Origin: Isoetes taiwanensis
Taxonomy: Eukaryota; Streptophyta; Lycopodiopsida; Isoetales; Isoetaceae
Assembly (NCBI GenBank): GCA_021234155.1
Contig: JAJEKV010000216.1
Location: 124,001-188,000, forward strand
DNA: 64,000 nucleotides
Reading direction: 5' to 3'
Position 1 is the first letter of the stretch. Every line of letters begins with the position of its first letter. Position numbers and translations under genes: made by a program. This document shows, in pieces, positions 4,725 through 61,440 of this stretch. Below the pieces are notes generated by a model. It saw nothing but the letters and a program-made list of their open reading frames with translations, had not been told where the DNA came from and searched no databases.

Positions 4725-5000
4725 TTGCCTCTCCCCCCCCATCTTTTGGGCGACTTTCTTTGCCCCTCCTCTCCTTTTCCATGACTTGCCCCTCCCTTTG
4801 CCCCTCCTCCTCTTTTCCATGACTTGCCCCTCCCTCTTCCTTTTCCCCTCCTCCTCTTTGCCCCTTCCCTCTCCCCTCCCCTGCCTCTCCTACCTCTCTC
4901 CCTCCCGTGCTCCTTTGTCTCCCTCCCTCCATCCTCCCTCCCTTCCATCTCCTCTTCCTTCCTACCATTCTTTCTCCACCATCTCCCTTCGTTTCTCGGA
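4725..5000 (+). repeat. polypyrimidine (CT-rich) low-complexity tract
   Basis: About 275 bases are almost purely C and T on the plus strand, in CCCCTCC/CTTTTCC patterns. All open frames here are low-complexity proline/serine/leucine strings (or charged strings on the other strand) and are not credible genes. The tract lies just inside the right TIR of the 1.1-5.1 kb element. Confidence 0.85.
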
Positions 5001-5505
5001 TTGTTCTTTGTAAATATTTTGTTGTTTTTATGAAGAAAAATTCTATTCAACATTCAATTCAAAAAAAAATAAAATGTTTGAGTCCCATTTTCAGTCCTGA
5101 GTCCCAAAATTGAGATTTGTCCCACTTTAATTAAATACAACTTAATGGCATCTGCACTCTTCAATGCCTAGAGCAATGGGCTTTATACACATTACTATTG
5201 TACTTATGCATTTAACCAGAGCATTTCCACGCTAGGAAATTAGTGCATTTAACTAGGGCCTTTAACTAGCTAACACCTGATTGTGCACTTAACGAGGGCA
5301 ATTGCATAACTGGGTCTCCTTAGGTTATTGTTTTACGCCTTGTTCTCTATTCGTTCTTTATTCTCTTCCTTCCTTCCTCGTTAGTTTGGACCACCCAATG
5401 CACATTTATTGGAAGGGACAAAACAAAGCTCCCCAAGATGAAAGGGGTCTAAAACTGAACACAACCTATACTTCTGATGTTCTTATATTTCATTTGTTCA
5501 GTTAT

Positions 5506-6365: not shown

Positions 6366-6559
6366 CTTTTCTTGTTTGCAGAGCGACAAAAGTTAAATTC
6401 AACAAGTCTATGTCAATGGCATCAAATGGCTTAACTATTGGCATAAAAGAATATGATGACTCAAAGACACATTTTGGGTATTTTATAGTTCTTATTGCTG
6501 TAGAGTTAAGGGTGAAGAATACATACCATCAATAATAGTTGTGATTCTAACACTTGATA

Positions 6560-7560
6560 TGTTAGATGTGTTAAAGGTAGACATTGCTACATTTTTCACT
6601 ATGTTGGGTGGTTGTGCATGCACCCGAAAGAAATTGATGATCTAGTTGCATCTACGCACTAATTAGTAAGTGGGAATGGACTCTAGATTTCCACAATTCT
6701 ATAATTCATAGACTTTTTTATTACAAAGATGTATCTAAAACATGTAAGACCTGAAGCGATTGTTACCGGAATACTATGATTAGTGCATATTCCAAACAAG
6801 GGCAGCTTTGCGCGGAGGCCATTCATGTTTTTTAAGGAATGCGGGAATGTGTTGTATTTTGAAATGAGAATCTTGCTATTTATGCGTAAGCGAGGGTAGA
6901 AGATCTTTGCAAAGTTGTTTCAACCAATGCCTGTAAGGAATGTAGTTTCATGGGCATGCATGATTGTAGCATACATTGAGCATGGTGACTGATGGAGGCT
7001 CATGTTCTATTTCATCGGATGCACGAAAGGATTTTTATCTCATAGCTGCAATGATTGCAAGTTATCTTCAAGGATAAGCTTGAGGAAGGATTTACCCTCT
7101 TTAAGAGAATGCCCCAAAGAAATGTTGTCTTATGGAATGCTATGATGTATGGCTAAGCCAAACATCATCGGCTCCAATGAAAGTTAAACAACTTTGTGAT
7201 CAAATGCAAATGCGAGATGTGCATCTTAGAATGCTATGACTTCAAAGTTATGCCGAACATGGATATACCAAAAATGCACTTCAACTTTTCTTCTATATAG
7301 GTCCCATGGCATGCCACCCAATGCCTCACTTTTGGGAGAATTTTATGCACTTGTTCTCATGATGGCTTGTACAAGAATGCTACTATTTGTCTCTATGGGC
7401 TACAACTATTTTATTGCACTAGTGTTGCAACACTATAGCTCGATCATGGATCTTCTTGGATGAAAAGGATGGTTGGCAAATGCAGAGGTGTTAACAAAGA
7501 GTATCCCTTATCAGCCAAATGCTACAACTTGAATAGCGTAAGTTGAGTTCATGTAAACCT
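6560..7560 (+). pseudogene. decayed pentatricopeptide repeat (PPR) gene fragment
   Basis: Scattered across frames are typical plant PPR phrases: LFQPMPVRNVVSWACMIVAYIEHG near 6915-6985 (written here as one motif with family-like spacing), then FKRMPQRNVVLWNAM (about 7095-7145), HGMPPNA (about 7300-7325) and PNATTW (about 7515-7535). Their order is that of tandem P/L/S repeats running towards the C-terminal E region. Many stops and shifts make it non-functional. PPR genes of this kind normally act in organelle RNA editing or processing. Confidence 0.6.
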
Positions 7561-30604: not shown

Positions 30605-32348
30605 ATCCAATATTCCCTCCCCTCCTAGTTTTGAATTTTCCCTCCCCCTTCTAGTTTGAAGCGGAACTAGAGGGTTTAAATACCTATAACAAGATTGAGT
30701 GGCCCACGTAGAGAGTGATAGACGTAGCATGTGCATAGCTATGAGAATTGAGTATTGTACACTAGGAAACAAAAACATAAGAGAGGAAGTCAAACATCCC
30801 TTTATGAATTACCCACAACATTCTATATATATGGAAATGGATCTCTAGATTGACCAACTCCTTTCTACCACGTGGCATTTAAATTGGAATATGGTCATAC
30901 CCTTTTAGGTCAATGGGACAAGCATTTCTTGCATAAAAAATCTACTATTTGTAGATTGGAGTATAAGTTGCAATATTGCTATAATGAATTTCTATACTTT
31001 TCTTTCACTAGAGGAACATGCTTATGTAGGCATTTGCACTTATGATTAAGCATTGATTCAAGTATAAAACTTTTGTTTTCTTTAAAACTTATGGCCAGGC
31101 TTCACTCTTGAAAATTAGGATATTCAATAGTCAATATCATATCCTTCTTGTCGGGAGCTACAAGGGTACCTAATTTCTCTCAATGTACAAAAAAATGGCA
31201 GGGAGCCATTTACTCGAGGCATTTCATAGCATCTTCTGAGAAAGGCTGTGCAGGTGAACTGCATATTGGAGATGGTGTTGCCATGTTAGAGTGCAAATGA
31301 CAAATATTTGTGGGGCTTCCTATTGGGTTGGTCGAATTGGGCCTTTCGGATGAGATTTGTTGCCAAAGGTAAATAAAAGGAGGGAATGATCCAAGTAAAA
31401 AAAGTAAAAAAGAGGTTAAATAAGGAAAATAAAAGAAAAAATGAAAGGGAAAAAAAAGGGGAGAGAAAAATAAAAAGGGGCCCAATACTTTTTAACGAGA
31501 AGGAGCTTTCCCCTTCTTTTCCTTCGCCAAAACATAAGTAGTTCATGTTTCGTGCTTCTTCTTCATACCGGACCTGGTCGCCATAGCTGGTTCCGACGGA
31601 TTTGCTCAATTGCCCGGCCCAGCCTTTTGCCCCTGCTCTACCCTCCTCCTTCCCTCTTTAACAATGGCAGCCCGTCCGCCGGATCAAGTTTCTAGGTCTC
31701 ATGATGCCAGTGCGGGTTGAGCACCCATTTCCGCAATTAAGGACTTGCCGGAACTTAAGATTCCGCAAGTCCTTTTCCTAGAGCTGCAATATGCCCATGT
31801 TTCTGCTTTTCATAGCCTTGCTTGTATGGCCGTAGTTGTCCATAGGGATGAAGAGGATGAGGTGCTTTCTGGCGATGTCTGGCTGTTTAGGTTAGCACAT
31901 ATGCATGTAGAGCGTCGCCGTTTCTGGATAGTGCCATGTTAGGGCGCCAAAGGCTCAGGTGCTTGAGGGGATCGCTTCTTGGATGCCTAATATGATTTGT
32001 TGGATAGGAAACAATGATGGCCGAAGTTGCCCTCACAGGTTCAGCTCTAGTTTCGCCTTGTTATGTTGCGTGCCTGGCATATCAGTTTGTAGTGTGGGGA
32101 GGTGTTTCTGTGTAATTGGATTGGTTTATATATGCAGGAATTCAACGTGGTCCTGAAGGTTATAGAGAGATCGATTTACTTTTCATGTTATTGTTTGCCA
32201 GCATTTTTATTTTTAAATTTTTTAATCTTTCTGGGTGCACATTTTTATCTAATGCTAGTTGGAGCTTGAACAATTAGCTGTTTTTGTATGCAGCTATCAA
32301 GCGAGTACATCAAAATTTTATTCTGAGTTGATTATTCTTCTTTTGCAG
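30605..32348. other. upstream region of the ATXR3-like gene
   Basis: 31370-31500 is a purine-rich low-complexity tract. Between about 31620 and 32340 composition becomes gene-like, and short open stretches end at plausible splice sites (for example TATATGCAG before 32136). The missing first exon(s) and 5' UTR of the gene beginning at 32349 probably lie here. I could not assign them with confidence. Confidence 0.35.
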
Positions 32349-35300
32349 CTGCTGGGAAATTACCAAGCTTGTCAGCCTGCAGACAGGAGTGGGCTTACAA
32401 AAGCGGAATTAAGTTTGGAGATTTCAACATGGAGTGTTCTGTTGAACACAAGGAAGTTATATCCATTTGCCAGAGTGTTTCTCTGGTATCATCTGAGAGG
32501 AATTTGAAAAATGTTTCCTTTCAACAGAAATCTGGTTTAGAAGAAGAAGATACTGAAAATGACAAGCTGCATTTGGACTCCTCAGATGCAGGTTCCATTG
32601 TGATTGTCCCCACACACATTGCGTTGGCAGATTACCCTAATAAGACCACCCCTTCACCAGGAAATTTGCCTGGTCCTATAAAAGATGCAAAGCCATTGCC
32701 TGAGAATGAATTTTGTGCCCCAGGTCCAAAAGCAGACATGGACGATGAACACACTCCTGATGGCAAAACAACTGATGCAAAGGTTGTAGCTCGAGTATCA
32801 GAATGCAGATCAGAGGGAAGTAGGCGGGTGTCAAGGTGGGACCGAAGTCCAGCAAGTGAAATCTCAACACGCACTTTTGCAAGTGAAACCCCAGCACAGT
32901 GGATAGCAGGAGAGCCTTCCATTACTTTGGCACCTCACAGGTTGAAGGATGGCTTTAATGCTGAGGCAATTGAGAGAAAGTCTCCCAATGAAGAAGCGGA
33001 GAACCATCTGATGCATAATGCTGAATACAGCCACAGGGATTCAAAACAGTGGGATTTTTCATTCCAAAAAGGACGAGATCGAAGTGCTGACAGGAGGTAT
33101 AGAAGGCTATATGATGAAGCGAGATAACGTTTCTAGTAGAGTGGCTCGGAAAGGCAATTATCGTGATGATTCTCAAAGAAAAGGTTCAGATAGATATTAC
33201 AGCGGCAGAAATTCATATGAAAGAAGTAGGTCACATGATCGTCGAAATGAAATCTCTGGCTATGCTGGTCGGAATGGTTACACAAAGGCGATCTGATCAT
33301 TCTCGTGGAGACAGCACGATGGCAGAAACAACCGTGATTACGCAGTATTCTGATAGGGACGGAAGGTACAGAAGACACTCTTCGAGCACCGTTCAGAGGA
33401 ACATAATGCCAGTGGCCAGAAGGTACACTACAACGGCGACTCAAAGTCACATAATATCCCGAGGAACCAAAGGACTTGAATCAAGAAATAGCTCCGGCTA
33501 ATGCAGTTGAGATCGCTGCAGAGTCTGCTGATCAAGGTGTAGAAGATGCATTGCCAGATAATGAGGAAGGCCAGTTGTTTGATGGACCACCTCAAGATTC
33601 CATTGGATGGATATATTACGATCTGGATGGGAATTGTCAAGGGCCAATGGATCTAGAATATCTGCAGTACTTGTATGAAAGTGAGACACTACAAAATGAT
33701 CACATGGTCAATCGTTTGGGGACAAATGAATGGATCACCTTGGAGTCTGTAGTGAGGTCATCAACCTCTGGTCAATTTTCTCACACTTTGAATAGTTCTG
33801 CTTATCAATTTGGGAAGGAGAGTTTTTTCAATGCAACAACGAACTGTGATTTTAAGGAAGCTGTACCTTTGGAGCGACCACGAGGCACATTCTAAAATGA
33901 AGCAAGAGATTAGTTCTTGTTGTCAAGTGGTCTCTAGGGCCGTCCTCCCCTTTGAGGACTTATATATTGACGAGAGAGTTGAAAACCTTATGCAAAATTA
34001 CACATTGATCCCTGGAAAAGAAAAAGAAATAGTAAATGGTATGGTGCTAATTTTTCTGTCTTTGTCAGCTTTTCTTTTACATCTTTGCTGAATGAATCAG
34101 GGTTCTAGCTCCTGATACATTACTTCTTTTATTGCAGAGGCATTGATGGTTGCAGGACATTCAAGTACTAAAGAAGGAGGTATAGAGGTTACACAACTGG
34201 TGTTTTGGCGGTGCTTTTGTTTTAGGCTGACAAGGTTCATGGTTTACAGATGCATTTCGTCCTTGGAGATATGGGGAATTTAGAATCAAAGAAGATGGAT
34301 TTGAGGTCCTAGGCATAGATATAGATCCAATGCACGCAAATGCAGAAAGGCCAACAGTGACAGATGAATGGAGGCATAATATGTTGTCTTATGATGATGT
34401 CTATAGCGCAGAAGGTACATGGAGGTGGACTTCGAGAGGTGGAGATTGGAAGCTTGTTCAGTTTGACAATTTATATGGTACATTTGAAATGAACACTGGC
34501 CATGAGAAAGGCATGTGTAGAAAGCTTGTTTTGAATGAAGGGCACCCTCTTTGTGATTTCATGCAGTTGAATTCAGTGGACCCGCGGAAGCATTTTATAG
34601 AATCCAGCTTACAAACTGAGAAAATGACTTTTGTGCCACCTCGCTGGGCTAGTAAAGCTCAGACTGTCAGAAATATTTTCTATCCATCATCCAAGCTACA
34701 GAATTACAAAATGTTTCAGACTGATGTATTGAAAAACCCCAGAAGGCACCCAAATCAAACAACAAATCCATGCCAAACATGGGCAAGTATCTAGTTTGAA
34801 TAAATCAACAATGCCGTCTGGCAAACTTAAGTGTCACCCCAGGAAAGTTATACAAAATCCATCAAAAGACCACATTGTGCTGCCGACTCATGGAAATGAC
34901 AGTGCTATTGAGCAGCTAACAGGAAAACCCATGAAGAGACATGAACAAGATGCAAAGGGGGTGTTTCTCATCGAGAAGGAATCAGCGTTTTCGTGTAAAT
35001 ATTCCAACTTCTGAAGTACATGGAAAGCATGTGGGCCAATCTCCAATTATTCATGATCTGGGCTGTTCTGGATCCATGTTAGAGCCTGTAGCAAATCTCG
35101 AGGAGCATCAATCAAGGCAGCAAATGATGCCCACCTCAACTAATGACTCGGAGGTGTTAAAGGAGGGAACTATTCAAGCGAATGCTAATATTGCTGACAT
35201 CCAGGATCTTTATAAGTCCTCTATGAGCTTTGCATGTACAACTCTTCAGGAATACGTTATCAAACATTATAAGAATCAGGTAATTCCTGCTACATTAACT

Positions 35301-38300
35301 GATCTCTTGGACATGTGGCTCAGTGGAAAGAAGTACAACACTGGTCCAACCATTGAGTCCACTGTAGCCCATTCAAGCACATTAGTACCTCATGGGAAGA
35401 CAGTAGTCAACACGAAACACCATAAGGTTGAGGATGTACCAGTTGGAGCAAATCGTGATTCAGGATCGCAGAATCATGGTGTTCGGCCTGTATCAACAAA
35501 CTCTTCTAAAAGAGTAGTTAAACATGTTGGAATTAACGATGATGAGAAATTGAAGTGTCAGAAAAAGCGACGGCTTGAACAGAGATTCAATAGTGAAGCA
35601 TTACCCCAGGGTTGTAAAATGACATGCTCAGACAATGGTGAAAGTGCTCCTGTGCCCATGGAAGTGGATACTGTTCTCAATACTGAATGTGATGACAAAC
35701 CAATCGCCCCCTCCAAAATGTCCTGGGGAAATTTGGAGAAAAACATTATTATGTCATTCTGTCAGTCCTTCCAAGGGGACTTGAAATCTATTCTCGCCAC
35801 ACTAGCCACATGCAGGGCATGGCATGTTGCAGTAAAGGAATTTTTATGCAAGAAGGTCGAGTTTCTCGACTGTAGCTCCTTAAATACTCGGATTCAAGAT
35901 AGAGCTTTGGAAGCTGTACAGGTGAGTATGCTAAGTCATTTTGCATTAGTATTATTGTCTTTCTCATCGTTATTGTTTGTGGCATTTACAGGTTTTGCTA
36001 GGTTCACAGTGTAAGGTTATTATACTGAATGGATGTACATTATTGAGCCCAGAAGGAATAACTCGCTTCCTTCAACACTGTCCTTTTATTATATTTGTGG
36101 AGGTGAGAGGGTGTTCTCATTTGAGAGAATTGAAGTCCAGATTTTTAAATGTTAAGTGGAGTTTTGATGAGGGTGCCGATGAATCTGTTGCTTCTGAGAG
36201 CGCTCTTTCTGTCAATAAGGTGGTACGTTGTAAAATGAAGGGAAACGATGCACATGCTAGGATTTCAGGAATTAAAAGACTTAGGCTGTTAGACAGCGAA
36301 GAGAATCATGATGAAGTGGCAGAGCAGATGGACCTGGACGCTGCTGATAGTACTGGCACTGAGCATGAAGTTGAATCAATTCTTCAACATGATGATGTGA
36401 AACAATGTAAATTGCATACTTGTGCTACATCTTCCAAGGATGCTTCAGAGAATGAGGAAACAAGGTCATGCAAGCGTGGAGCTAATAATACTACAATTTC
36501 CCAATCAAGTAGCAAGAAGGTTAAAACTTCCACCTCGAAGAAGTTATTCAAGCCAACAATAATACAGAGGCCTTCTCATGCGATAAACTGTCAACGCATG
36601 CGGATCGGTAAGACTGGCTCGGTGAAGGTCAGGGATGAGGTGCCAATTGAGTTACAAAGCTTGCTTCATAAGAAGATCGGTAACATTCTAAAGGTGCTTA
36701 TGAGTCATGATAAGAAGTCATTGTTAAAGGTATGTGCCTTCGTCCCTTTACTTCGCTTATTATTATTGAAATCTGAACATGTGTATATGATTCAGACATG
36801 TGGGCAGGGTCATGCTGAGTCGGAGAAGAGTATGAACCTTGCCATTATTGAACATAGACTGGAGAAAGGTTCCTATTCAGCTGGCAAAATTGGTTTTGAC
36901 GCTTTCGAGACTGATATTTTCAGAATACTGAGGCGGTTGCTAAGGTGGGTCCCCCATCCTGCATAAAAAGTTTATGTATGGTGTTCTGTATATATGAATA
37001 TAATTTGCAACTCTTTCTTTGCAGTTCTGCAGAAAATACACCAGAGTTCCCTTTTGCGAAAGATCTTTTCAGAGTTGCATTTAATCTTTTTTTTAAGTTT
37101 AAGAAGGCTTATTTTCCTACCAACTTAAATAATAGCATAGTGCAGAAGCCCTCAAGCAAGAAGCAGCATGGGAAAGCCAAGGGTCAGAAGTCTGATAATG
37201 CAGCAATGCGGAAAGGATTTGGGAACAATATCCAGAAAGGAAAATGTGTTTCTGGAAAGAAGCGGAGAGGCTTAGATGAAACACATTGGTCAGATTCTGA
37301 AACAGAAACATCCGACGAGGACGTAGGCGAACATGAAAATGATGGGCTACACGGGTCTGATACAGAGATGGAAAGTGGGTCAGAGGGGTTCAATTGTGTA
37401 TTTGAGAATGATGACATTGGTGAAATGCTGGAGTTGGGTCTCGGGAGTGGGGTGCCGCGAATGACCAAAGCATCCATGGTTCCCCCCCATTACACGGAAG
37501 TACACAGTGGTTGATGACTACTGTATTGTCATAGGTGAAGATCTGGTAAGGAGGAAGATGAGGGTAGAGCTACCAGATGACTATGAGGAAAAGCTCAAGA
37601 TAGCAAGAGAAAAAAGGGGCTGTGAGTACAGCCATTTAGACGTTCCTGAGATTAAAGATTATAGGCCTCGTAAAATTGGGCGATGAAGTGATTGAGCAAG
37701 AGGTCTATGGAATTGAACCATACACGCACAATCTACTGTTGGATACAATGCCTGATGACACACCTATTACAGACCTTGGAAAGCAACAGTTTATTGAAGA
37801 TGTCAGTGTCTTTTGCTCGTGTTTCTATGTAGCTTTACTGTTAACAAACTAAAATTTGTTTTCGTTATTTTCTTTATACAGAAGTTATTATGTGCTCTAA
37901 ATAAGGAGGTTAAGCATTATACGGGAAGTAAGGCCCCTATGGAGCACTCATTGGAGTCAGTTGTACAAAGAATTCATGAAGATGCAAAGGAGTCACAAGA
38001 TATGGACCTACAAGTATTTTGTCATGACCTACGGAAAAATATGAAGAGCAGGCCTAAAGAGAAATATGTAGCTTACATAAAGGTAAATTTCAATTTGACA
38101 CATGAACACTGCTTTTCTGTTATTTGCCTCTTGACATGGTTTTCTTTTCAAAACAGGGTCTTGGTGTTGTTTGTAACAAGCCTGGTGGATTTCAGAAGGA
38201 CGATTTTGTGGTTGAGTTCCTTGGAGAGGTACTATTAGTCAGAATCGTTTTTTAGGTACCATGTATAGTCATATCCATACTGATCTTCATATAAGTCTGT

Positions 38301-40784: not shown

Positions 40785-42597
40785 CCAGGCTACAGATTTG
40801 TTTTTTGATGATTAATAACCAAATGCAGTTTTTAGCATTGACAGTGGTGTTAATCATCTCAAAACAATTCTGTTCCGCTTTGTAGGTATTGTTGGATGTA
40901 CATCTGTACTTATAATTATTTTCTTGTGGAAGCCCTCTTTAGAGCTCCGTTTTCTGTGTACCATTTATATTCATGGGGAGAACCCACTGTCTCAATGAGG
41001 CAATGTCAAATAATCCATGTATACATGCCTGCAGCAGGCCTTGAAATGAAAGTTTTGCGTTTGCAAGAGGATGAGTTTAAGGTGCATTGTTCATTCCAAG
41101 GTCCAAATGTAAATGAAATATTATTATGGTTATATCATGCTTTGCCTTACAGCGAATGTGGCTGGAAATGTTGGTTTCAGAACGTTGAGCACACGGTAAT
41201 GTGTATCATTTTTCTCTTTTCTATATATAAATGCCTTCTCGTCTTTTCAGGAGCGGGTAGATTCTGGAATTCACAAGGGATATACTATTTTTGAAGCAGG
41301 TATAGATAACTTGGAGAATAGTTTACAGATTCATGAAAAAGGATGTTGCTCTTTTCCATCAAGAAGGCTAAGCAGCTGTATTTTTGCACATTGTATCACA
41401 GTGGGAATCATCATGCATATAATGCTTGGCCTGTGCCAAACTTATGTTTAATTTTTGTCCCATTCGAGTCTTAGTCTTATCTGTAGGCATATGATATTGA
41501 TGAAGTCAATGTGGTTTTAAAATATGAAAAGTTTGAACGTACCTTTTAACAGATAAAGGTGTTTTGGGACAGACTTCATACCTTAAAGTCAGTAAAGATT
41601 GCTTATGAAGAATGTTCAGGTCTGAAGCTGCCGCATTGGGTTGAAGGAAAGGGGTTACCGATTATCAAAGAAGAGAAATACAAGTCGATTTTGAAGTTTG
41701 ATGATTCAAAACGTTAGCATTGTTTATGTTTTCCCTTTGACAAACTTTGGCTTTGTCTTCATCAACTTAAACAACTTTTTAGTTGCCAAATTCTCACGGT
41801 CTCCTATGGTTTTTGTTCATTGGCAGTTATTTTGATCAGGTGGTCATAATCAGAGAGGGCATTTTGATTCAGGTGGTCACAAGGTGTCACGATCTAAAAG
41901 ATATTCCTTGGATGGAGAATAACGCTGTGTCCTCTGTTTTCCTGTCTGCCTCTATTACGACAAATTCCATAGCAGATATTACTTTGGTGGACTTATTAGT
42001 CAGCTAAATTCTTCAGAGCCATAGTATTGAAAATAGTATAAATTTATCAATAATAGTCATGATTTACACAAGTCTCCTGTAACTTGGTATGCTACATTTG
42101 AGATTCCCTTGCATTTTGGAAAACCCAGCATATTTGTGTCTTCCATAAGTCATGATTGCGATAACAAAAAATGCGTTTCCTTACAAAATCCAAATAGGTC
42201 CATCCTTATTTTCCACCATCTGTTTTCACATCCTTCACATCATGCTCCTGTAACTTATCAATTGACATCGTATACTAAAAACATGCTTCACATCCTTCTC
42301 TTGTATTGACATCATATACTAAAACAATGTGATCTAAGATTTGAAAAGGCAGGAGACAGAGATAGTACCCTAGGTATAACTAAATCCGATCTAAGATTTG
42401 AAAAGGCAGAAGACAGAGGTAGTACCCTAGGTGTAAATAAATGCGGTGCGAGCTTGCATAAGATGTGAAACCGAGTGTGACAAGGTTGAAGTTTGTTGAT
42501 TGGATCTCAAAACATTTTTCATTGTTACCCAGTGATAAGCTCAAGGTAAAGATATCAAAGGGCAAGCCCGGGGCTTCAAAGCCCAAGCCCAAGAAAT
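40785..42597 (+). other. 3' flank with possible small spliced gene or exon fragments at 41.04-41.72 kb
   Basis: Three stretches look exon-like: about 41045-41193 (MKVLRLQEDEFKVHCSFQ... ending at ACG before GTAATG), 41251-41299 (ERVDSGIHKGYTIFEA between CAG and GTATAG) and 41553-41717 (VFWDRLHTLKSVKIAYEE... ending in TAG after AACAG). The last junction is out of phase. I do not recognise the protein. It may be a broken gene, or a spliced 3' extension of the ATXR3-like transcript. From 42330 to 42420 a 60-base phrase (ATCTAAGATTTGAAAAGGC) is tandemly duplicated. Confidence 0.3.
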
Positions 42598-42601
42598 CCA
42601 A
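42598..42601. repeat. left CCAA target-site duplication
   Basis: CCAA directly precedes the left TIR, and the same four bases directly follow the right TIR at 52036-52039. Confidence 0.65.
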
Positions 42602-42631
42602 AACAAGGTTTAAAATGAAACGCACTTATTT
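42602..42631 (+). repeat. left terminal inverted repeat of the 9.4-kb element
   Basis: Thirty bases match the complement of 52006-52035 with one mismatch. The TIR itself contains one arm of a small hairpin: AAACGCACTT here pairs with AAGTGCGTTT about seven bases later. Confidence 0.8.
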
Positions 42632-44069
42632 AAGAAGTGCGTTTGAAAGATTCCTTTATAAAAATTGAAAACTTAAAAAAAACACACAAAATAGGGAGCA
42701 AAATAGATTGTTGAGCAATTAGCATTCGGGATACCCCCAAAAAAGCAACATTTTTGAAGCCTTTTCATTTTTAAAAGAGGGCAAAAAAAAAAAAAAAATG
42801 CTTGTTTTGAGGAGAGAGACATTAATGTTGATAACTCAGTAAGTATTTATTGTTAAAAACGTAAGGAAATATAGATTGTTTTTGCAAGCTTAACACTAGA
42901 GTTGTCTCAGGGACCTGTTTGGGTTCATCAACCCGTATGGGTCCCTCAATCCCTTCTCCATATTAGGGACTAGTTCTTCATGATACTTATGAGATTTTAA
43001 ATATGAACACCTGAATTGTAAGATTAACTCGAAGTTGTACCACCATATTCAATGGCAAAATAAAATTCTTTCACGAAGTTTTGCTGTCAATCGCACCTTG
43101 AAATACACTCAATTCAATGGTTTCGATGATATGATATAATCTCATGACACTCGGCATGGAATACAAATTTCAAGATAACATTAATTTTCTATGAAGGTAG
43201 CCTACAAATGCTACTCATTTTTCAAATTTCATGTGATTTCATAAAAATTTGATGTATCAATGAGCAAATCATAATTTCAATCCTTGAGAGACCCAGTCAG
43301 GTCCCTAAGGAATTTCTGAAAAACAGACATCCAGGAACCATTTCATATCCATGATATTTGAAATAGAATAAGAATGTGAAGGTACTATTATTTTTCAATA
43401 GAAATAGATACTAAGTACTACACGTCTTGCTAAATGGATTTCATTTTTTCAAAAAGTGGAGTAGTACTATGAATTTTCAAAAATTTGACCCTTGGGGGAC
43501 CTAACTGGGTCCATAAAGAATTTCTGAACTTCAAACTTTTAGGAATTATTTCTCGGAAATTCTACCATAGATTTTCCTAATTCTTCTTGCGATAGATTTG
43601 TCATATCATGATTTACAAGATGGAAGAATTAGAATTCCTAGGAAAAATCATATTTGCAAAATAATGTGAGAAATGTTAAAGACTTTGAGAATAAACTTGA
43701 CCCCTTTGCATTCGGCTCCACATTATGTTTGGTAATAGAAGCTTTCTATATTTTTCATAAATTTTTCCTTATATGTACACTCATGGAGGACAACATATTG
43801 TGAGTATGTAGACAAATTCTTTATTTCGGAGCTATAATAGAATTTCAAAAAAAGTGTACGAATGAACCCATTTGGGTTCATCAAGGGACAATACTAAAAA
43901 AAGTCAAACATTGGAAAGACAAAGAGTGTGAAATCCTCGAGCAAGAAAGAGTTGTTTCAATAAAGCATTGTTAAAGAGACAAAGCTTTTCGGTTTAAAAT
44001 CTTCATCAAAATAAATTATAATAATACTTAGCACATAGTTTACAATGGAAGTAGTTAAGAAGTTTGTCT
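42632..44069. repeat. left non-coding arm with degenerate GGGACC/GGGTCC repeats
   Basis: No coding sequence is recognised. Phrases of type GGGACCTRACTGGGTYC recur near 42910, 43297 (inverted), 43497 and 43866. Each is followed by AAGAATTTCTGAA-like or TCATCAA-like text, so the arm is built of diverged repeat units of about 200-370 bp. The core is itself an imperfect palindrome. Confidence 0.5.
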
Positions 44070-45002
44070 GTATAAATTTATACGAGAGGTGGGAGAGGTG
44101 GCTCTTCCCAGTCCACAGGACTCTCGTTCCCCTTAGGATCTGGCTCTTGCGAGCTTACAACAGCAGAGATGCCTCCTTTCGATTCGACCTCCATCGGCAT
44201 GGCGGTTTCTCGCTCGGGCACCACAGGGCTCAAGTCGACAAACTCCACCTCCTCATCTTTTTCTTCCCCGTAAGTGGAGGGTCATTTACGTGTAAAGTGC
44301 CCTTAGCATCGGCCTGCACCGTTCTTCGCCCTCCTTCCGTTTTCATCGGGGAAAGGATTCACAAGAGCTTATCCTGGTCCTGATGAAACTTACTTTATCT
44401 GGGTCTATGTCGACTGAGACGACATTGCGCCCCTGCTTAAGGGCGCAAACTGCTGTGGTGCCTCGATCCGAAAAGGCATCTAAGATCCGATCTCCGTGGA
44501 GAAAACCATCAGATCAAATTATTAATAAGATTTGTGGTTTCGGATAATGGGACACACCGCCTTTATCATTTGTGGGTCTCTTAATTTCTGCAACGTACCG
44601 GAACCGAAATGCATTGCGGGGAGGAGTCTTCTCATTACTCAGGTGTTAAAATGAATCATGGTTTTTGGTGTCCGCTACCAGAAAACCTATATGAAAATGC
44701 TCAAAGCTTGACTCACTTCAGCGCGGACCACCACCATGACCCTTGACGTTCGTTTTAAGCCTGCCGCCAAGCAAAGCGGTAAACAATTAGAAATTAGTAA
44801 AAAGAAAACAAGGAAAATAAGTTAGCCCAGTAGTGTGGCGGTATAAACTTATACCACGGTTGCCTTGCTGTATAAATTTATACCACGGCGGCAAGCCGTA
44901 TAAATTTATACAGACATTGCCTTGTCTGGTATAAATTTATACCACGGTTGTTCCAGCCTTTAAAATTTAAACCTTAAGACAGATGTGGTATAAATTTATA
45001 CC
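44070..45002. repeat. palindrome cluster 1 (GGTATAAATTTATACC) in and after the methylase gene
   Basis: Copies at 44070-44083 (overlapping the methylase stop codon), 44841-44854 (one mismatch), 44870-44884, 44898-44911, 44928-44943 (exact) and 44987-45002 (exact). Within the intron the centres are 29, 28, 31 and 59 bases apart. CCACGG follows several copies. Confidence 0.85.
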
Positions 45003-46042
45003 GTGGAGTTACCGAAAAAAAGCGTTAATTGTGAAGCTTACCAAACGCAGTTGATTTTGGCCCGCCATTCATGAGGCCTCCCATAGGTTTAAGCACCGGC
45101 ATCGTCTGCAGGTCGGAATGAAAAATGATGACCCTCCGGTTTTTCGGATGTCGTGGACTTCTTTTAGGCCATCCAGAAAGACAGGACTTGCACGCGGAGT
45201 GAAAGCCTCCTCATCAAAAGCGCTATCCTTTATTTTAAATCCATAAGGAATATCTGCAATGCATAATGTAAAATTTTGCTTGTCTAAAAGAGTCCCCAGC
45301 CTTGTACAATCACCCTCAACAACCCTGTACTGGACGTCCTGACCAAATGTAGTAAACCTCTCATATGTACAGTCAAAACTGGTAGTGGCGACCTCTTTAC
45401 CCTGTTCAATTGCCTTAAGCCTTTGCCTCTCTTCCTTGGCCCTACGAACCAGGTTTAAAAATCCAGTTGGTAGCCCCTTCTTCTTGTTCTGTAAGAGTAA
45501 TGTGAGACAAAGGCACAAACACATAACATATTTTTTGCAAAACTTACCCAAATTCAAAGTTAACAAGTGTGCTCTTTGATGATCTTCTGTGGTGCAACTT
45601 GGGTACAAAAGTTTGCACTCCTCCCAGTCTTCTAGGTTGAGCTGCTTCATTAACTCGGCCTGGCAAGTGACAATGTCTTTCTGACTGCAAAGGGTTTTAT
45701 ATTGTAAGACAAAAAAAGGTAGAAAAAAACATGGCATAGCAAGTGAGGCTTACGTCTTAGCTTCCTTGGCCATCTCGTCTAATGTGAATTCTTTGGCAAC
45801 TACTTTTCCAACAAAGTAACAAATTCTTTGCTTTTGAGACCATGAATAAAGGCCCGTGGTACAATGCTCATATTTTTTGTTTTGATTCACCACCTTTCTT
45901 TGGTTTCTTTCTGCGTTGCTAGCTTGTTCTTTAAGCTCCCCATCTTGAACATACAAAAATTCTCTCTTGCAGATCCCACACCGTAAATGGTCAAGCGAAG
46001 TTTAGTGTTGAATGGCGAAGAAGATGGGCACGGCGACTGTGC

Positions 46043-46172
46043 GGTATAAATTTATATCACATGACCGCACTGCGGTATAAATTTATACGCGTGCACGGGT
46101 CTCGATATAAATTTATATCATGACGCACCGGATAAATTTATCTGGCGCCGGGCACCGCAGATAAATTTATAC
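46043..46172. repeat. palindrome cluster 2, in the intron after the ParB-like exon
   Basis: Five copies, at 46043, 46074, 46104 (GATATAAATTTATATC, a perfect palindrome with compensating changes), 46131 and 46160. Centre spacing is 31, 30, 25 and 29 bases. The spacers are GC-rich and unrelated to one another. Confidence 0.85.
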
Positions 46173-46245
46173 CGTCACCCGGCTATTACAAACTTCTAAC
46201 CATGCTAAACATACTACAAAAGATTGAATTGAAGCTTTTACTTAC

Positions 46246-46730
46246 TTGACCATCTCTGAAAGCGAGCTGAAAGTAGTTATCGTATTGTTTTACAGCCATA
46301 ATGGGTTTCTTATCCGAATCATAACTGAGGCAGAACTCTGTCACACATGCTTCTCGAAGCTTTTGAAGCTTGTTCTTTTGTTTTTTGAAGTCGTCTCCAT
46401 GCACTTGTTTGAAATCCACGTACTCTGTTGCATGAAGCTTAATCTTGTCTATTAGGCTCATCTTTAGTCTGAAGTCATTGTCTAGATTGTGACTCACGGC
46501 AATGACTTTTGCCTCTTCGTCTGTCACCCCCACATAGATATGTGCTTCCACACTCTTCCAGACTTCATTACGGCTTTCTTCTTTTGATAGTTCTTTTCTT
46601 GCTTTATAACTATGTGTGCCTCCAAGAACATAATAGGTGTAATCTTCAAAATCGCCTTTTTGTAGTCTTTTAATTGGTTGCACCGACTTGTCTACCATCA
46701 CAACTAGTGGCTTACACATGGGCATGAGGA
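46246..46730 (-). other. ParB/Srx-like domain segment
   Basis: About 150 codons read without a stop: MCKPLVVMVDKSVQPIKRL, then YYVLGGTHSYKARKEL at the position of the ParB GGxHRxxA loop, then VTDEEAKVIAVSHNLDNDF like the ParB LSDEEAxxxAxxENxQR helix. The arginines typical of nucleotide-binding ParB are replaced (GGTHSYKA), so DNA contact or scaffold use is more likely than ParB CTPase activity. The domain assignment rests on motif reading only. Confidence 0.55.
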
Positions 46731-47224
46731 TTCCTTCTCATTCTTTGCTTAAGGATAGCCACATGTGCCGCTGCACAACTTTCGGACTGAAGCACTCGAC
46801 CCCATCTTCATTTTTGGTGGCCTCTTAATAGTGCTTTTAGTGTCAAAGAAATGGTCTCGCTTGAGCGGTTTGGTTTCATTAACCCGCTTGAGAATAGCAT
46901 TCGACTTATCTGCAGGGCTTCACAACGATATACGCTCCGGGAGCCTTCAAGAGCCTTCGACTCCTCTATAGTCAAGGACTTTGTGGTTCTAGACTTTTTC
47001 TTGGTAGGAGGCTGTGTATCTACTACCAGGGAATGCTTCCTACCCTTTCCCTTTGTGACGACTGGTTCCTCCTCTTCCTCTTCCTCTAATACTTCCTCCC
47101 TATCTTCCTCTTCGATATTACGGGGGTACCATAGGCCCTTGACCAACACGTTTTCTTCGCACAGCACTACTGACATCAAAATTTCTACTAGGTCCTGTAA
47201 TGCAGAATTAAGTTAGAGAATGAC

Positions 47225-47240
47225 GGTATAAATTTATACG
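47225..47240. repeat. single palindrome in the first methylase intron
   Basis: GGTATAAATTTATAC at 47225-47239 lies between the splice donor at 47263 and the acceptor at 47194 of the minus-strand gene. Confidence 0.8.
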
Positions 47241-47739
47241 GAAAGCAACTAAGAATAACTTACAAAGCCGTTCTTGTAATTGTCCGCAATGTAATCATAG
47301 ACGTCTTTGGGCTTGCACATGCTTATTCTAAGCATTTTACTATTGAGAACATAGTAAACCACCCCCTTGTCATGGTTGCACTGCATCAAAACTTCATCAT
47401 CGTTCTCTGTAGTAACAAGGCTTATCATTTCACCAGCAGGGTAATAATCATCAGCCTTGAACTTGCCCTTCCCTGATTGGTGGCACAAGTAAAGGTACAC
47501 CTCAGTGGGTTTGCTCTCTCTTGCCCCCGTGGACGCGTGCAGTGTCCGTTCGTAAGTTTATAAGTCTGTGGCTCTGGTGGTGCAGCCTTTGATGGTTGGC
47601 CTTTGTGTACAAACTTGATTTTAGGGCTGGAAAAAGCGTAAAAAAACCATTTTAAAACAAGAAACAGAACCTTTTTTGACTTTTTGAAACAAAAAACAAA
47701 AAAAAAGAGGTCGAAAGGGCATAAAATCGACACTAAATT

Positions 47740-48640
47740 AACGCTTTATTTGTGTCAATTAAGCTTAAAACACAACAATATTACTAAAATATTAAGGTTC
47801 GGGACCACTCTTTAAGCACTAGACACCAAGATTCCAAAATGGTTCTGGAACGGTATAAATTTATACCGCTCGAACACAGTCGGTATAAATTTATATTCGA
47901 AATGGTTCTCGGCGGTATAAATTTATACCCGTTAACCATTTCGATAGATAAATTTATATCTTAAAGTACTGAGCGTATAAATTTATACCGCTCGTGCTCG
48001 AGCGGTATAAATTTGTACCGCTACAGAACCATTTCGGTATAAATTTATACCGACTGTGCTTAAACTCTAACAGATTATAACAAAAGAGAAACTAAAACAG
48101 TACGGATAGTAGACTTACGTGGCCATGGTCGTATGGGTTCGCTTATAGCTGTTCGGAGAAGCAATTTGGAAGGGGTATATAAGGCGCATTCGAGCCTTGG
48201 ACTCCTAGCGGTATGTAGAAAAAGGGTGGGGTGGCCACGGGCTTAAGTACCTCTGCTAGGTGTGTTTCAGATAGCACTTCTATAAAGTTTTCAATACAAC
48301 CTATGCGTGAGTTTTCAGTATAAATTTATACCGCTTTCTTTTCTCTGTTGCCCTCCTCAGTATAAATTTATACCAACTTCAGATAAATTTATACTGCCGC
48401 TTCAAGTTTGCCTTCTCAGATAAATTTATACCATCCCTGTGTAAACTTTTACCGTCGCTCTTCCGGTCAGTATAAATTTATACAAAGGTGGACGCTAACT
48501 TTCTCGAGTATGGCTCGAGAAAAAGAACTCTGAGCCTCCAACTCACATTCGCTCGGGCTTCCTCCCAATGACATTCACACCTCCTCGGTGACCGACAGGA
48601 AGTAGCTTTGAAAATTCTGCGTCCGGACATTCAAACCCCA
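47740..48640. promoter_or_regulatory. divergent promoter region with palindrome clusters 3 and 4
   Basis: This roughly 0.9-kb region separates the divergent methylase and transposase genes. Cluster 3 has seven copies, at 47852, 47882, 47914, 47947, 47975, 48004 and 48036, with centres 30, 32, 31, 29, 30 and 32 bases apart. Cluster 4 has copies at 48318, 48360, 48382, 48419, 48441 (degenerate) and 48470. Three (47852, 47914, 48036) are exact GGTATAAATTTATACC. Near-constant spacing of about three helical turns would place bound proteins on one face of the DNA. An operator or centromere-like (parS) role is inferred; the TATAAA half could also act as a TATA box. Confidence 0.7.
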
Positions 48641-51610
48641 CCTCTTGTTGAGTTTACTCCGGCCACGACCACCTCGGCTTCCACCACCAGTTCAATTTAC
48701 TCCACCACACCCAGCTCCTGAACGTCGTTTGCCCCCACCAATGCGTTTTACTCCACCACAGGCTAGAGAGGTCAGACTACCTACCCCACTTCATTTTAGC
48801 TCGTCGCCCATAGTCCACCGTAGGCTAAATCCCCGGAGGCAAATCACGCCAACTCCATCCATATCGCTAAATGGTACTACAACAAGTGGGAGCAGTCAGC
48901 GACACGCAACTCCTGTGTTCTACGACACGTCAGGAGCTGGTCAACTCCGTCACCAACCTCGATTACTTTTTCCCAGAGACAGGGAAAGCACCTCCCCCAA
49001 GGACTTGCCCACACCAAACCTCTCAGCGTCTACAAGTACACCTCATGTTGATCTCTCAGACGAAGAAACACCTCATGTTGATGTCTCAGACGAGGACCTA
49101 CCAAAGCCACAAGACTCCATGTTCGAATTCAAAGCCCCTGCAAGTAAGAATCTTAAGCGTAACTTACACAAGAAAGCATGTACAACCGTTAGAAGAAAGA
49201 AACTCATGGACGAGGCTCACTTGCGGGCAACACATACAAAGCACTGTTGTTCTCAACGTTGTTTGCTTAAGATTGGACTAAAGGAATTGAGGTTGATTCG
49301 TGATAGTTAGTTCAATGACTCGCTAGACCAAAGGGGCTACTTAGCCTTCAATATTAGGCGGATGATGGTGAGAAGTTTACTTACACAAACTGGTGGCCAC
49401 ACCGTCTCATCAAACGGCCTTCAAATTGATTCATGCTTTAGGCGGGGCGACTTGACCGCTTTGAAGAAAAGGCTTGACAAGAATCCGTGCATCAATGACT
49501 ATCGCCATTCGGGAGGCATAACCGTAATTCATGCCCTTCAATGTGTTTCCGGATGGAAGGTTTCTTTAAGGAGTCTTGTGAGAAACTCCCAAACAGCCCT
49601 ATGTACCACTTGAGTGACAATTTCACTAAAACAAGAAGTCTCGATAATTATAAGGAGATGTGTGTTGATTTGGAGAACGCTTTGTGCTACTCTTACTTTC
49701 TTTACTTTATGTGCTCTGGAAAAAGAGTTTTTTCTCGTGTCCATTCCTAGAAAGCATAGGATGTCTGTTTGTGCTATATGCTCAATTAAAAGCTCGAGAG
49801 ACAAAATGCAAGGACACTTCACACTAAAAGTAAGCATCCGGGGCGTGTTCTTGCCTAGTTCTACTTAAAAGTAGGTTCTTTCCTAAACATATTTTCATTT
49901 CAGATGCATTGAAGGAGAAACTGAACAAGCACAGAGAACAACAATCTTTGGAAAGGAGAAAATTGACAAAACATAGGAAGAAAGCACTGGAACAACCACT
50001 CAACTACATATGGGTTGTTATTGATGGAATGGACCGGAAGAAGACCACCCTACCACATTTTGTCAATGTGCCTAAGGATCTTCTTGAAGAAGATTTCATA
50101 CATCCGCATGTTGTTGGTGCTATGGTATTTAATGGAAAACTATCTTGCAAGGCATTTTCTGAATTATCCAAACATTCAAATCTCACTATCACAATATTGA
50201 ATAAGCTTCTTTCCAATCTAGAACATATACCACCAGGTTGTATCTTGACTAGACAACACGACAAGGGAAAATAAGAATCAGGCGTTGTTTGCTTTCTGTG
50301 CTATGCTAGTAGAGAAACAAATCTTCAAGAAGGTGAAGATTGGTTTCCTGCTTGTTGGTCATACACACGATCAAATTGATCGGATGTTATGAGGTTCTCT
50401 AAACGTCTTGCTTTCGAAAAAAGCGCTCGACCTACCAAGCAATGATTGAGGTTATCCAAGATTCCTACAATCCTCGTCCGGACATCGAGTTATTGGAAGA
50501 AACTTATGATTTCAAAGAATGGATTTTTGGAGAGATCAACTGGGTCACCGTGCTATTGAGCCCTTGAGAAACATTACAATTCAACATCGGATCAAAATTT
50601 CACTTGTAGATGGCAAGGCCATCTTACAAGGAAAGAAATATATGCCACATCCTTGCGATTGGCGCCAAACCCGGTATTCAATTCATTCGCACCATCCCCA
50701 ATACTAGTTCCATGCTCTCTGCAGAGAAGCAAACGCCTCTAAAAAGCTTGAAAGAAATCACAAAGAGTAAAAAGGAGGGAAGAGCATTTGACTCAAACAA
50801 ATCATTGGATTATATTGAGACAAGTATTGATCGTGCTCTAACCACTTTGGGGAGGCAGATGCTTTATGGTGGCCTCAGTTTTTTCTCGACAACGTGACAT
50901 GTTGCAAGCTTCATTGCAAGGTCGAAGAATAGTTACATTCAACCTGGCCATCTAGGCAAACTCTCCCATGCAAGTTGAGAATCAAGAGGAACAAGTAGAG
51001 ATATTGGCTAGCTCGGATGAAGATGCAGAGTCATGTACAGCGGCCCCCAGCCCCACGGCACAACAAGTTGCTCGAGTATCCGGGTTCGAGTCTCGGAGAT
51101 TGAAAGGAATGCTCATAGCTGTCGGTGATAATGATGAATCACGGGAAGCCATTCGGCTAGCTAAAATCTTGGAGGTAACAAAGAGGATGGAATTCCCACT
51201 CAACTAAAAGTGCACTGGATGAGAACGAATGCCGCCAATGCTTTCAGTGGGAGTTATACTTTGGAGATGGTAAAAACAGGAGTGGGAAAGAGAGCAAAGT
51301 CCAAAGCAAGCACTGCTGTCATAGATCTAGCTGAAGTAAAGGTTCTTGCATATGACTTTGTTCGATTCTTTGCTAATAAGTTACGATGGTCACTCAAACT
51401 TTAATAAGGTCGGCATGTGGATTAGACAAACAACCTAGAAAGGTGGCAAAAAAAGATGATGATGAAGACTCACTTGTAGAAAGTGAGGAAGAAGATCGTT
51501 CGAGTACATCCAAGTCTTTGAGAGTGAAGGCGAGGATGAAGGCTCAAGTGATCGAGATTAAATGAGTCGGAGGATGAGATGCATCCTGATCTTCTGCGCA
51601 AAATGTAAGT
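48620..51610 (+). pseudogene. DUF7869-like presumptive transposase (broken)
   Basis: A proline/arginine-rich N-terminal part (48645-49100) and an acidic stretch lead to HCCSQRCLLKIGLKELRLIRD, a cysteine motif typical of the start of this family. After a stop at 49308, FNDSLDQRGYLAFNIRRMM, RMEGFFKESC and IPRKHRMSVCAIC follow in changing frames. An intron at 49830-49903 leads to WVVIDGMDRKKTTLPHF (first acidic residues). In the next frame come LDNTTRENKNQALF and FLLVGHTHDQIDRM near 50260-50390. The C-terminus is acidic and ends ESEDEMHPDLLRKM near 51607. Such RNase H-like proteins recur in transposon-like settings in many eukaryotes; that they are the transposase here is inferred from position between TIRs. 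Shifts go in both directions, so this is real decay. Confidence 0.65.
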
Positions 51611-52005
51611 TTGTCCGATGACTCGAACATGTAAAGAACAGAAAGTGCAGGTGATGATTGTTTGTCAAAATGTCCTATATTTTTGACAATTTTGTTCATA
51701 ATTTTGTACAATTTTCACAACCTTGAATATATCACTTCTTTGTCACTCTACTACCCTTGCTATTTTTTTTTTATTGCCCTTTTTTGTTACACTTTATAAA
51801 AGTAACTATTTTTTGTTCTAGTTTAGGAGGATGAAAATTGCTATTTAAAATTTTTGCACGAAAGTTATGTTCAATCAACCCCTCAAAAATGGTACCTAAA
51901 TTACTTAAATTGTCACACCTGTCACAAAAAAATCTTAAAAATGGACTTTTTTTAAAGGGAATTTTAGGAATCTTTCAAAGATTCCTTTCAAGTCGCGTTC
52001 CAAAC

Positions 52006-52035
52006 AAATAAGTGCGTTTCATTTTAAACTTTGTT
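52006..52035 (-). repeat. right terminal inverted repeat of the 9.4-kb element
   Basis: The complement of the left TIR with one mismatch, followed directly by CCAA. Just inside lies GGAATCTTTCAAAGATTCC (51969-51987), itself a palindrome whose half is found at the left end near 42645. Confidence 0.8.
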
Positions 52036-52039
52036 CCAA

Positions 52040-59740: not shown

Positions 59741-60180
59741 TTCAATGGTTAAGATATATTAACATGTTAAATATGTTGAATCTTGAATATATATTAACAT
59801 GTTGAATGCCGTGATCCCGAGGGCGGGATCAGCAAGCGGCCGGGACCGGAGGATCCTGGGAGGATGGGATCTATTTTTAAGGGGTGTGTGATCCTGGGAG
59901 GAGGGGATCACCAAGTATGACGCGGGATCCCGGAGGAGGGGATCCTGTTTTCCTTAGTAGTGTGTGATCCCTGAGGACGGGACCAAAGTACAGCGACGCT
60001 GGATCCCGGAGGAGGGATCCCGTTTTATTAATATGTGATCGGGAGGACGGGATCACCTAGCAGCGGACGCGGGATCCCGGAGGAGGGATCCCCGCACGTA
60101 TTTTTATTACTTTTTTGGTACTATGGTCCAAGGCTCAATGGTCTTAACTTGGCTAAACTCAAAACCTTTAGAAATTGAAT
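59740..60180 (+). repeat. GATCCC-GGAGG-GGGATC array, right copy A
   Basis: Units such as GTGATCCTGGGAGGAGGGGATC and CGCGGGATCCCGGAGGAGGG (overlapping register) are repeated about eight times, in the orientation opposite to the 55.9-56.6 kb array. The block begins with AATGGTTAAGATATATTAAC and ends CGCACGTATTTTTATTAC...CTAAACTCAAAAC. The same beginning, body and ending recur at 61.0-61.44 kb. Confidence 0.75.
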
Positions 60181-60935
60181 TATGGCTTAACCGTTGTACA
60201 ACGGTTAGTACAACGGTTGGCTCATGAGTCTATATATACTCATGCCTTACTTGATCTTGGTAGAAAGTTGAGTTCAGTGGGGCCTCTGGTTGAGTTCAAA
60301 GAGTGCCTCTCGTTCAATTGCTTACTGTTCAAGCCAAATGGTGAGGACCCAACAAAAAGTTGTTGAGAGCAAAGGCCATCAATGCCCATACACTTGAGGA
60401 TATTCTCGCCCACTTGAATGAAATTCAAGGAGGATGTGGGCCTAGAGTTTCGCCCAACCCCGACCAAGATCAAAACGCTCGTAAGTAAGCTTCATATTCA
60501 TGTTCTACTTTCATATTAATCTTTTCATGATCCCCCATGCTTCATGCAGACCGTGGAGAATGGGGAATTCAGGGGAGACCCCTAGGCCTCTTGACTATGC
60601 TCCCTGTGAGTAGGCCAACCCATAGGGCATTGCTTTGGGAATTGAAGAAGTGTATTATCCAGTGGCAAGGCTTTGAAGCGCTTGTTAACTACGGACGTTG
60701 TGCGGGAAGGCAACACCCTAAAAGCCCGCCGAGGAAATGTATGTTGCACTAAGGTGCGCGAAGAAGGATCTGATCAGGGATGTCCTAGAGGGGTCTGAGC
60801 CAACCCTGTGCGATATTTTCGATCACATGATGTGGAGACTGCCCACCGGTGTGCCAGATGTAACTGAGGAGGACGTATGGGCAGAAGCCATGGCAAAAGT
60901 GCAGGAGGTAGATTCAGAGTGATTCCGAATTGGAA
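60181..60935 (+). pseudogene. fragments of an unrecognised protein between the two right arrays
   Basis: Successive open pieces read RAKAINAHTLEDILAHLNEI (about 60366-60425), then VSRPTHRALLWELKKCIIQW (about 60608-60665), and ARKKDLIRDVLEGSEPTLCDIFDHMMW to the TGA near 60920 (AKKDLIRDVL onwards in one frame). They look like the C-terminal part of one helical protein with a splice site near 60480-60548. I do not recognise the family. It could be the end of the gene at 57.5-59.2 kb. Confidence 0.35.
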
Positions 60936-60999
60936 TGTCAGTTTTAAGCCATTGTATTAAGTTCAATGTTTCAAAGCTTATTAAAAGTAATGGTTAAGG

Positions 61000-61440
61000 G
61001 ATATTTCAATGGTTATTCCAAGACATATGTCAATGGTTAAGGGATATGATAAATAATATACTAACATATTCAACTCGCGGATCCCGGGAGGACGGGATCA
61101 CCAGCAAAGGACGCGGGATCTGGAGGAGGGATCCTGTTATAACCAGTGTGTGATCCCGGAGGAGGAGATCCCGTTATAACCAGTATGTGATCCCGGAGGA
61201 CGGGATCATCACGCAGGCGGACGCGGGATCCCGGAGAACGGGATCACCAGTCAAGACGCGGATCCCTGGAGGATCGGGATCATCACGCAGCGACGGGGGA
61301 GAACGGATCACTGTGCAAAGCACGCGCGGGATCCCTGAGGAGGGGATCACATTATAGGCGACGCGGGATCCCGGAGGAGGGATCCCACGACGCTTTTTAT
61401 TAGTTTTTATCCTATGGTCTAAACTCAAAACATTAAACAT
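61000..61440 (+). repeat. GATCCC-GGAGG-GGGATC array, right copy B
   Basis: A diverged direct duplicate of the 59.74-60.18 kb block: an AATGGTTAAGGGATAT start, about nine GATCCC/GGAGG/GGGATC units with internal 40-60 bp sub-repeats (TTATAACCAGTRTGTGATCC), and the same CTAAACTCAAAAC ending. The unit ACGCGGGATCCCGGAGGAGG is the commonest. Confidence 0.75.

Follow-up and report, generated by a model that had tools for sequence, protein, structure and literature searches.

A decayed Isoetes transposon with a ParB-like/DNA methylase gene and palindrome arrays as candidate sites of self-methylation

What does a ParB-like/DNA methylase gene do inside a plant transposon, and which sequence might its product address? 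The question arises in a window of 64,000 nucleotides from Isoetes taiwanensis (the whole stretch analyzed; assembly GCA_021234155.1, contig JAJEKV010000216.1, positions 124,001–188,000), where a transposon of 9,434 bp occupies window positions 42602–52035. The element is a decayed copy of a large cut-and-paste DNA transposon family, and it contains arrays of short palindromes whose central hexamer differs between groups of the methylase. With moderate confidence, we read these palindromes as sites at which the element would recognize and methylate its own DNA through a group-specific ParB-like/methylase, an explanation drawn from sequence comparison. A preliminary description of the locus had covered the ends and the two genes of the element; it was silent on the broken state of both genes and on the palindrome arrays.

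The element is bounded by 30-bp terminal inverted repeats (TIRs), identical at 29 of 30 positions, inside a 4-bp target duplication:

42598..42601, no strand: left 4-bp target duplication, CCAA
42602..42631, plus strand: left TIR, 30 bp, from sequence comparison of the ends
52006..52035, minus strand: right TIR, 29/30 against the left TIR; identical 30 bp in the relative L084x at 2379
52036..52039, no strand: right 4-bp target duplication, CCAA

Local alignment of the two TIRs scored 55, against a maximum of 28 among 300 random window pairs, and the 23-bp TIR core is present twice in the 64 kb but never in 100 shuffles; the ends and CCAA duplication given in the preliminary description are thus borne out. 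Between the TIRs lie a methylase gene and a DUF7869 gene, divergently oriented and both broken by stops and frame changes; the spliced, divergent arrangement previously described is upheld by matches of their read-throughs to PF01555 and PF25273, respectively. Just outside the left end, a 57-bp unit is repeated twice (92% matches; 42331–42442).

The host genome holds further copies. A PF01555 search of the 1.658-Gb assembly returned 1443 methylase candidates, 150 of which were scored, and all 150 exceeded the PF01555 cut-off. Thirty-one of the scored loci, chosen from the best-scoring list plus a few odd matches, were read: 20 at 9.9 kb and 11 further loci, initially at 2.9–3.5 kb. DUF7869 lies on the strand opposite the methylase in 13 of the 20 and on the same strand in none. 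A TIR probe like AACAAGATTGCGTATTAAACG, allowing up to five mismatches and with three loci scanned with extra flanks, located both ends in seven of the 20 loci, one end in seven, and neither in six. All seven two-ended copies belong to the 13 with opposite-strand DUF7869; they span 7.5 to 9.5 kb, and each has a perfect 4-bp duplication, all different (TTAA, AAGC, CTAA, TCAT, ATAT, TGTG, and ATCA). Among the 11 further loci, L081x is complete, with a CAAT duplication and a divergent DUF7869 gene. L084x, the closest window relative found (79–85% DNA identity over three long matches), also has a divergent DUF7869 gene and one exact 30/30 copy of the window TIR; its other end was not found in the fetched stretch, and a two-ended L084x was rejected when the best end pair tried had unequal flanks. 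Two loci, L055 and L060, have a short inverted repeat (for example AAACGGGAG...CTCCCGTTT) just inside the methylase-side TIR, a possible hairpin in two copies. Repeated divergent gene linkage, 4-bp duplications, and shared TIRs together establish a true transposon family of many copies in which the methylase–DUF7869 pair recurs, the outcome that the preliminary description had named as support.

The window alone could have accommodated a different origin, in which the methylase gene, a mobile element in its own right, landed by chance inside a DUF7869 transposon, and nested insertions do occur in this genome (one, in L083x, is described below). The 13 divergent linkages, with L081x and L084x besides, and the presence of both genes between shared TIRs in every two-ended copy speak against chance nesting. 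So do the methylase flanks in the window, where no significant inverted repeat was detected (score 22 vs. a null mean of 21.8). We give this origin next to no credence.

The methylase gene was modeled on hand-drawn GT-AG exons, as follows:

44090..48126, minus strand: broken ParB-like/DNA methylase gene, exons provisional
48126-48119 and 47626-47263, minus strand: provisional exons 1-2, without tblastn support from plant relatives
47195-46246, minus strand: provisional exon 3, with the putative ParB-like part at about 46737-46246
45963-45754 and 45684-45549, minus strand: provisional exons 4-5
45489-45040, minus strand: provisional exon 6, motif IV, DIPYGF
44780-44090, minus strand: provisional exon 7, motif I, ILDAFSDRGTTAV

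The hand-spliced read-through matches N6_N4_Mtase (PF01555) at E = 1.1e-8 and 35.7 bits (cut-off 26.7), as the preliminary description anticipated, and its motifs run IV then I, the beta order. Unspliced exon pieces matched neither methylase nor ParB models in Pfam and likewise did not reach the PF25273 cut-off, so the methylase claim hangs on how the exons were spliced; in the later exons, plant relatives align by tblastn to parts of 46719–46207, 45995–45078, and 44774–44081. Against 5.8 billion proteins, the read-through retrieved two fern proteins (Adiantum nelumboides), and a profile search in which the 8000 best candidates were scored retrieved at least 35, including 32 from A. nelumboides, P0007 and P0025 from A. 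capillus-veneris, and P0034 (Gb_10123), whose prefix we take to denote Ginkgo biloba. The methylase family is thus found in ferns and, if that assignment holds, in a gymnosperm; it may be spread across vascular plants.

The base that the enzyme would methylate is probably adenine, given the D-x-P-Y catalytic motif and NCBIfam matches led by adenine-specific enzymes, all far below their own cut-offs; the CcrM model matched the plant relative P0034 at E = 1.1e-13, yet far below that model's own cut-off. SPPY is typical of most N4C enzymes and DPPY of N6A enzymes (PMC8885841, consulted in part).

Palindromes are concentrated in and near this gene. The element contains 25 sites within three mismatches of GTATAAATTTATAC (longer consensus CGGTATAAATTTATACCG), compared with three in the other 54.6 kb of the window; the whole-window total of 28 compares with a mean of 5.2 over 100 shuffles. 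The sites are distributed as follows:

48318..48483, no strand: palindrome array, 6 sites, upstream of the provisional methylase start
47853..48050, no strand: palindrome array, 7 sites, spacing 29-32 bp, in provisional intron 1
47226..47239, no strand: single palindrome, in provisional intron 2
46044..46172, no strand: palindrome array, 5 sites, in the intron after the putative ParB-like exon
44841..45001, no strand: palindrome array, 5 sites, in the intron before the motif I exon
44070..44083, no strand: last palindrome, supplying the TAA of the provisional methylase stop codon

None of the 25 sites overlaps a provisional exon, though 63% of the gene span is exonic; counted by six clusters instead of 25 sites, the chance figure for this avoidance is 0.0024. 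Within clusters, 14 of 19 spacings are 25–32 bp. Mean identity is 0.895 for the sites and 0.25, the random level, for the spacers, and the sites are mostly near-perfect palindromes, with 5 to 9 of 9 pairs. The shared frame GTATN6ATAC occurs 15 times in the window element, 0 times in the 54,566 bp beside it, and 167 times in 198,020 bp of the 20 relatives. In viral contigs, the 16-bp palindrome was found only as single copies, in 34 stretches.

Such sites could instead act in RNA, as intron or leader hairpins that steer splicing or yield small RNAs from the methylase transcript. Near-perfect palindromes could form short hairpins, most lie in noncoding stretches of the gene, and intron 1 holds 65-nt inverted arms. 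Arrays, however, also stand in the space between the two genes, ahead of the start codon, and it is the sequence itself that is kept in 25 copies, with intervals of roughly 30 or 42 bp that come close to full turns of the helix; we regard an RNA role as distinctly improbable. A transposase-centered reading, by contrast, makes the palindromes binding sites of the DUF7869 protein and the methylase incidental cargo. Sub-terminal repeat arrays are read by transposases in En/Spm-type elements, a precedent for such sites, and DUF7869 and arrays co-occur in all seven two-ended copies. The arrays here cannot be called sub-terminal: in the window element, 1.47 kb separates the left end from the nearest site, and the 3.5 kb next to the right end is free of sites. 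They sit upstream of and within the methylase gene, and DUF7869 matches contain no site, either in the window or in the 20 relatives. On this evidence, transposase binding is an unlikely role for them.

The preferred reading, recognition by the methylase itself, draws on how the sites differ between copies. All share the arms GTAT-N6-ATAC, and the central hexamer differs from one methylase group to another: AAATTT in the window element and its nearest relative, GAATTC, and TCCGGA. The sequence TATTCCGGAATA is present in all 20 relatives read at 9.9 kb, with 1–11 exact copies in each, or 4–22 when up to two mismatches are allowed, commonly at intervals of 41–42 bp; the window-type site is absent from 19 of them, and one has a single copy. 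Among the 11 further loci, six (L078, L079, L080, L082, L092, and L093) have the TCCGGA type or one-step variants, L081 and L091 have the GAATTC type with identical array spacing and so are near-copies, and L084 has 20 AAATTT-type sites. In all three types, sites lie upstream of the methylase gene and in introns, not always the same introns. Many TCCGGA-type sites are the one-step variants TCTGGA and TCCAGA, which suggest decay of a CpG.

A methylase tree built on the 85-residue motif I segment pairs the window with L084 (support 0.983) and groups L081, L083, L084, and L091 with the window as a non-TCCGGA group (0.982). L083, whose methylase groups with L081 and the window, was considered as a conflict on account of its TCCGGA sites and set aside: all nine lie in a nested element inserted in its methylase gene (L083x 2307–7406, 5.1 kb, TATA duplication, TCCGGA type). 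In this insertion, tblastn detected neither a methylase nor a DUF7869 gene (L083 with L089, G000:C1066:2706200-2714000); it is likely a non-autonomous derivative.

Comparison of the window with L084 gives 98/105 identical bases in sites, 240/326 in the other bases of the same two introns, and 333/386 in the exon with the ParB-like part (stretches picked by eye, gaps excluded). Sites kept while spacers drift argue that the sites were functional before the element's decay. It is also conceivable that the palindromes have no connection with the proteins and are minute repeats that spread by themselves and are tolerated in introns: the window spacers are random, and copy number differs between elements. 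Absence of GTATN6ATAC from the 54.6 kb of neighboring DNA and a hexamer that differs between methylase groups both run counter to this, and we judge it very improbable.

The region in front of the catalytic motifs of the methylase protein is likely to be ParB-like. Here the preliminary description, which had placed a ParB/Srx-like domain ahead of the methylase, stands in part: the methylase is recovered by PF01555, and the ParB resemblance appears as weak or profile-level similarity only. The check with the ParB_N model PF02195 failed, with no match in the window or the plant relatives. In a PHROG scan of the window exon, three ParB-like families rank first (E = 0.0076, 0.011, and 0.064); of the corresponding regions of three plant relatives scanned alone, one matched a ParB-like PHROG (E = 0.053) and two matched none. 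A tblastn search of 50,697 phage records with the window exon (E up to 10) gave 21 matches, all weak (E 1 to 10) and several of them duplicate records of one phage; 15 are annotated ParB-like, four DNA methyltransferase or methylase, and two hypothetical. The same region of P0001 matched two records of one phage, annotated ParB-like (E = 2), and that of P0034 one unannotated record (E = 8).

Two of the matched phage methyltransferases (L040 and L041) both contain PF01555, and their front parts align with ParB-like phage proteins. Aligning the ParB-like part with seven actinophage ParB-like proteins in hhalign gave probability 89 and E = 2.4e-6 over 64 columns, and profile–profile comparison of the methylase part with the same seven gave probability 96 and E = 5e-9; the phage set was picked by the weak tblastn matches, so the comparison is not fully independent. 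Pfam places PF02195 in two of the seven, one above cut-off, and neither is L040 or L041. The phage methylases H1, H26, and H19 were considered as ParB-bearing relatives and dropped, Pfam showing no ParB domain in them. In the PDB, the best match of the ParB-like part is sulfiredoxin, at only E = 0.1; sulfiredoxin has the same fold class as ParB.

The partner gene is the probable transposase gene:

48560..51580, plus strand: broken DUF7869 gene, limits approximate; best supported at 49897-51386 (PF25273, tblastn of P0003-P0005)

Its hand-spliced read-through matches PF25273 at E = 2.1e-23 and 83.3 bits (cut-off 26), and a protein search returned three unnamed proteins sharing the stretches VIDGMD, QLDN..ENKN, and VGHTHDQID, which, in our own reading, may be catalytic. 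The open-access literature searched held no paper on DUF7869. Outside plants, viral contigs yielded no exact TIR core, and neither a DUF7869 relative nor a methylase relative was confirmed there; in bacterial and archaeal genomes, 41 stretches fitted a pattern and none was confirmed as a relative.

We propose the following mechanism. The DUF7869 protein would move the element, and the ParB-like/methylase protein would bind the palindrome arrays, its part common to all groups reading the GTAT/ATAC arms and a group-specific target-recognition part reading the hexamer. A methyl group would be added at the palindromes, probably on adenine, and each family would thereby label its own copies. Because upstream and intron sites are many, clustered sites may provide self-limiting control of the element's own promoter or an anti-silencing mark. 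The self-methylation idea of the preliminary description gains support, of an indirect kind, from palindrome arrays with a core that changes from one methylase group to the next; the methylation step itself we infer. The narrower proposition of a private modification code, in which the group-specific part would read AAATTT, GAATTC, or TCCGGA between GTAT and ATAC and matching sites would stand in its own promoter and introns, is held tentatively, as plausible and short of probable.

Several observations weigh against these proposals. The link between hexamer and methylase amounts to about two changes on a tree of an 85-residue segment; in that tree the L081 + L091 node has support 0.000 and joins the window pair at 0.635. 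Only two of the six bases distinguish AAATTT from GAATTC, and one site with an AAATTT core is present in L081x as well, so the firm hexamer contrast is that of TCCGGA with the other two. In TCCGGA relatives, flanking 7-mers are 0.38–0.44 identical, above random: these arrays may have grown partly by duplication, or the motif may be longer. Exon avoidance in the window was not a blind count, the exons having been drawn with the sites in view, and in the 20 relatives 29 of 265 sites overlap tblastn-covered methylase stretches; seven of the 29 belong to L058, in which a match probably runs across an intron. L055 has one site behind DUF7869, the 3.5-kb L090 has no site of the three types, and seven of the 20 loci have no DUF7869 within 9.9 kb. 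The ParB domain falls under Pfam thresholds, and structure models were too poor to use, both for the methylase relative P0001 (predicted local distance difference test score, pLDDT, 42.6) and for the DUF7869 protein P0003 (AlphaFold, pLDDT 36.2).

Elsewhere in the window, outside the element, tandem arrays with GGATCCCG-like units occupy 59887–61295, with periods 37, 38, and 71. Long exons at 32327–37514 presumably resemble an ATXR3-like histone methyltransferase gene of plants; five open frames from that region were tested and had no Pfam match. Neither a tRNA nor an Rfam match reaching the gathering score turned up in the window.

Were the palindromes methylated, a specific enzyme and a specific site could be assigned to N4-methylcytosine or N6-methyladenine in a plant genome, and transposons would be seen to direct base modification at themselves. 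Fixed arms around a variable hexamer also offer a natural test of specificity, with several enzyme groups in one genome.

The gene pair is already known in kind from algae, and the palindrome arrays are the new part. The preliminary description was aware of no plant transposon with this arrangement, and the implied novelty does not survive as stated: the 21.5-kb Ectocarpus element Sola1-1_Ec32 has a ParB-like plus N4/N6 methyltransferase gene opposite its transposase, and green and red algal ParB-methylase transposon precedents, with the same kind of protein, are cited as refs. 50 and 51 (PMC12477816, consulted in part). Sola1-1_Ec32 resembles the Isoetes element in carrying a methylase gene, with a ParB-like part there and a putative one here, inside a DNA transposon on the strand opposite its partner, a transposase there and probably here; it differs in size, host, and partner (21.5 kb, a brown alga, and a Sola1 transposase vs. 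7.5–9.5 kb, a plant, and DUF7869). The authors suggest that such proteins bind and modify their own element; in the portion of PMC12477816 consulted, palindrome arrays are not mentioned and no target is named for the algal proteins; the palindromes here supply a concrete, testable candidate. Sola2 makes 4-bp target duplications (PMC3627910, consulted in part), as the present family does, a trait not specific to Sola. In the open-access literature searched, outside which most subscription papers lie, no title or abstract concerned such elements in land plants or palindrome arrays.

The bdelloid rotifer enzyme N4CMT is likewise a bacterial-type amino-methyltransferase in a eukaryote that acts on transposons; its gene serves the host in silencing and has a chromodomain and the SPPY motif, whereas the present gene is transposon-borne, with D-x-P-Y and a putative ParB-like part (PMC8885841, in the part consulted). 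The actinophage methyltransferases L040 (Gordonia phage Stormageddon gp207) and L041 (phage phi1_186018 CDS0101) share PF01555, motif IV before motif I, and a preceding stretch that aligns with phage proteins annotated ParB-like, but they are single open frames of 428–444 amino acids in phage genomes. Type II restriction-modification systems and orphan methylases such as CcrM combine a beta-class methylase with palindromic targets. The present elements are alike by analogy, in that their putative palindromic targets vary from family to family; the target proposed here is longer, a variable hexamer set between fixed arms, and its proposed function is self-marking. No restriction nuclease was seen with the element, though no systematic search for nuclease genes was made. 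If the code is true, families would distinguish self from other transposons and from the host, and the system would be a eukaryotic counterpart of restriction-modification specificity, put to self-recognition, autoregulation, or escape from silencing.

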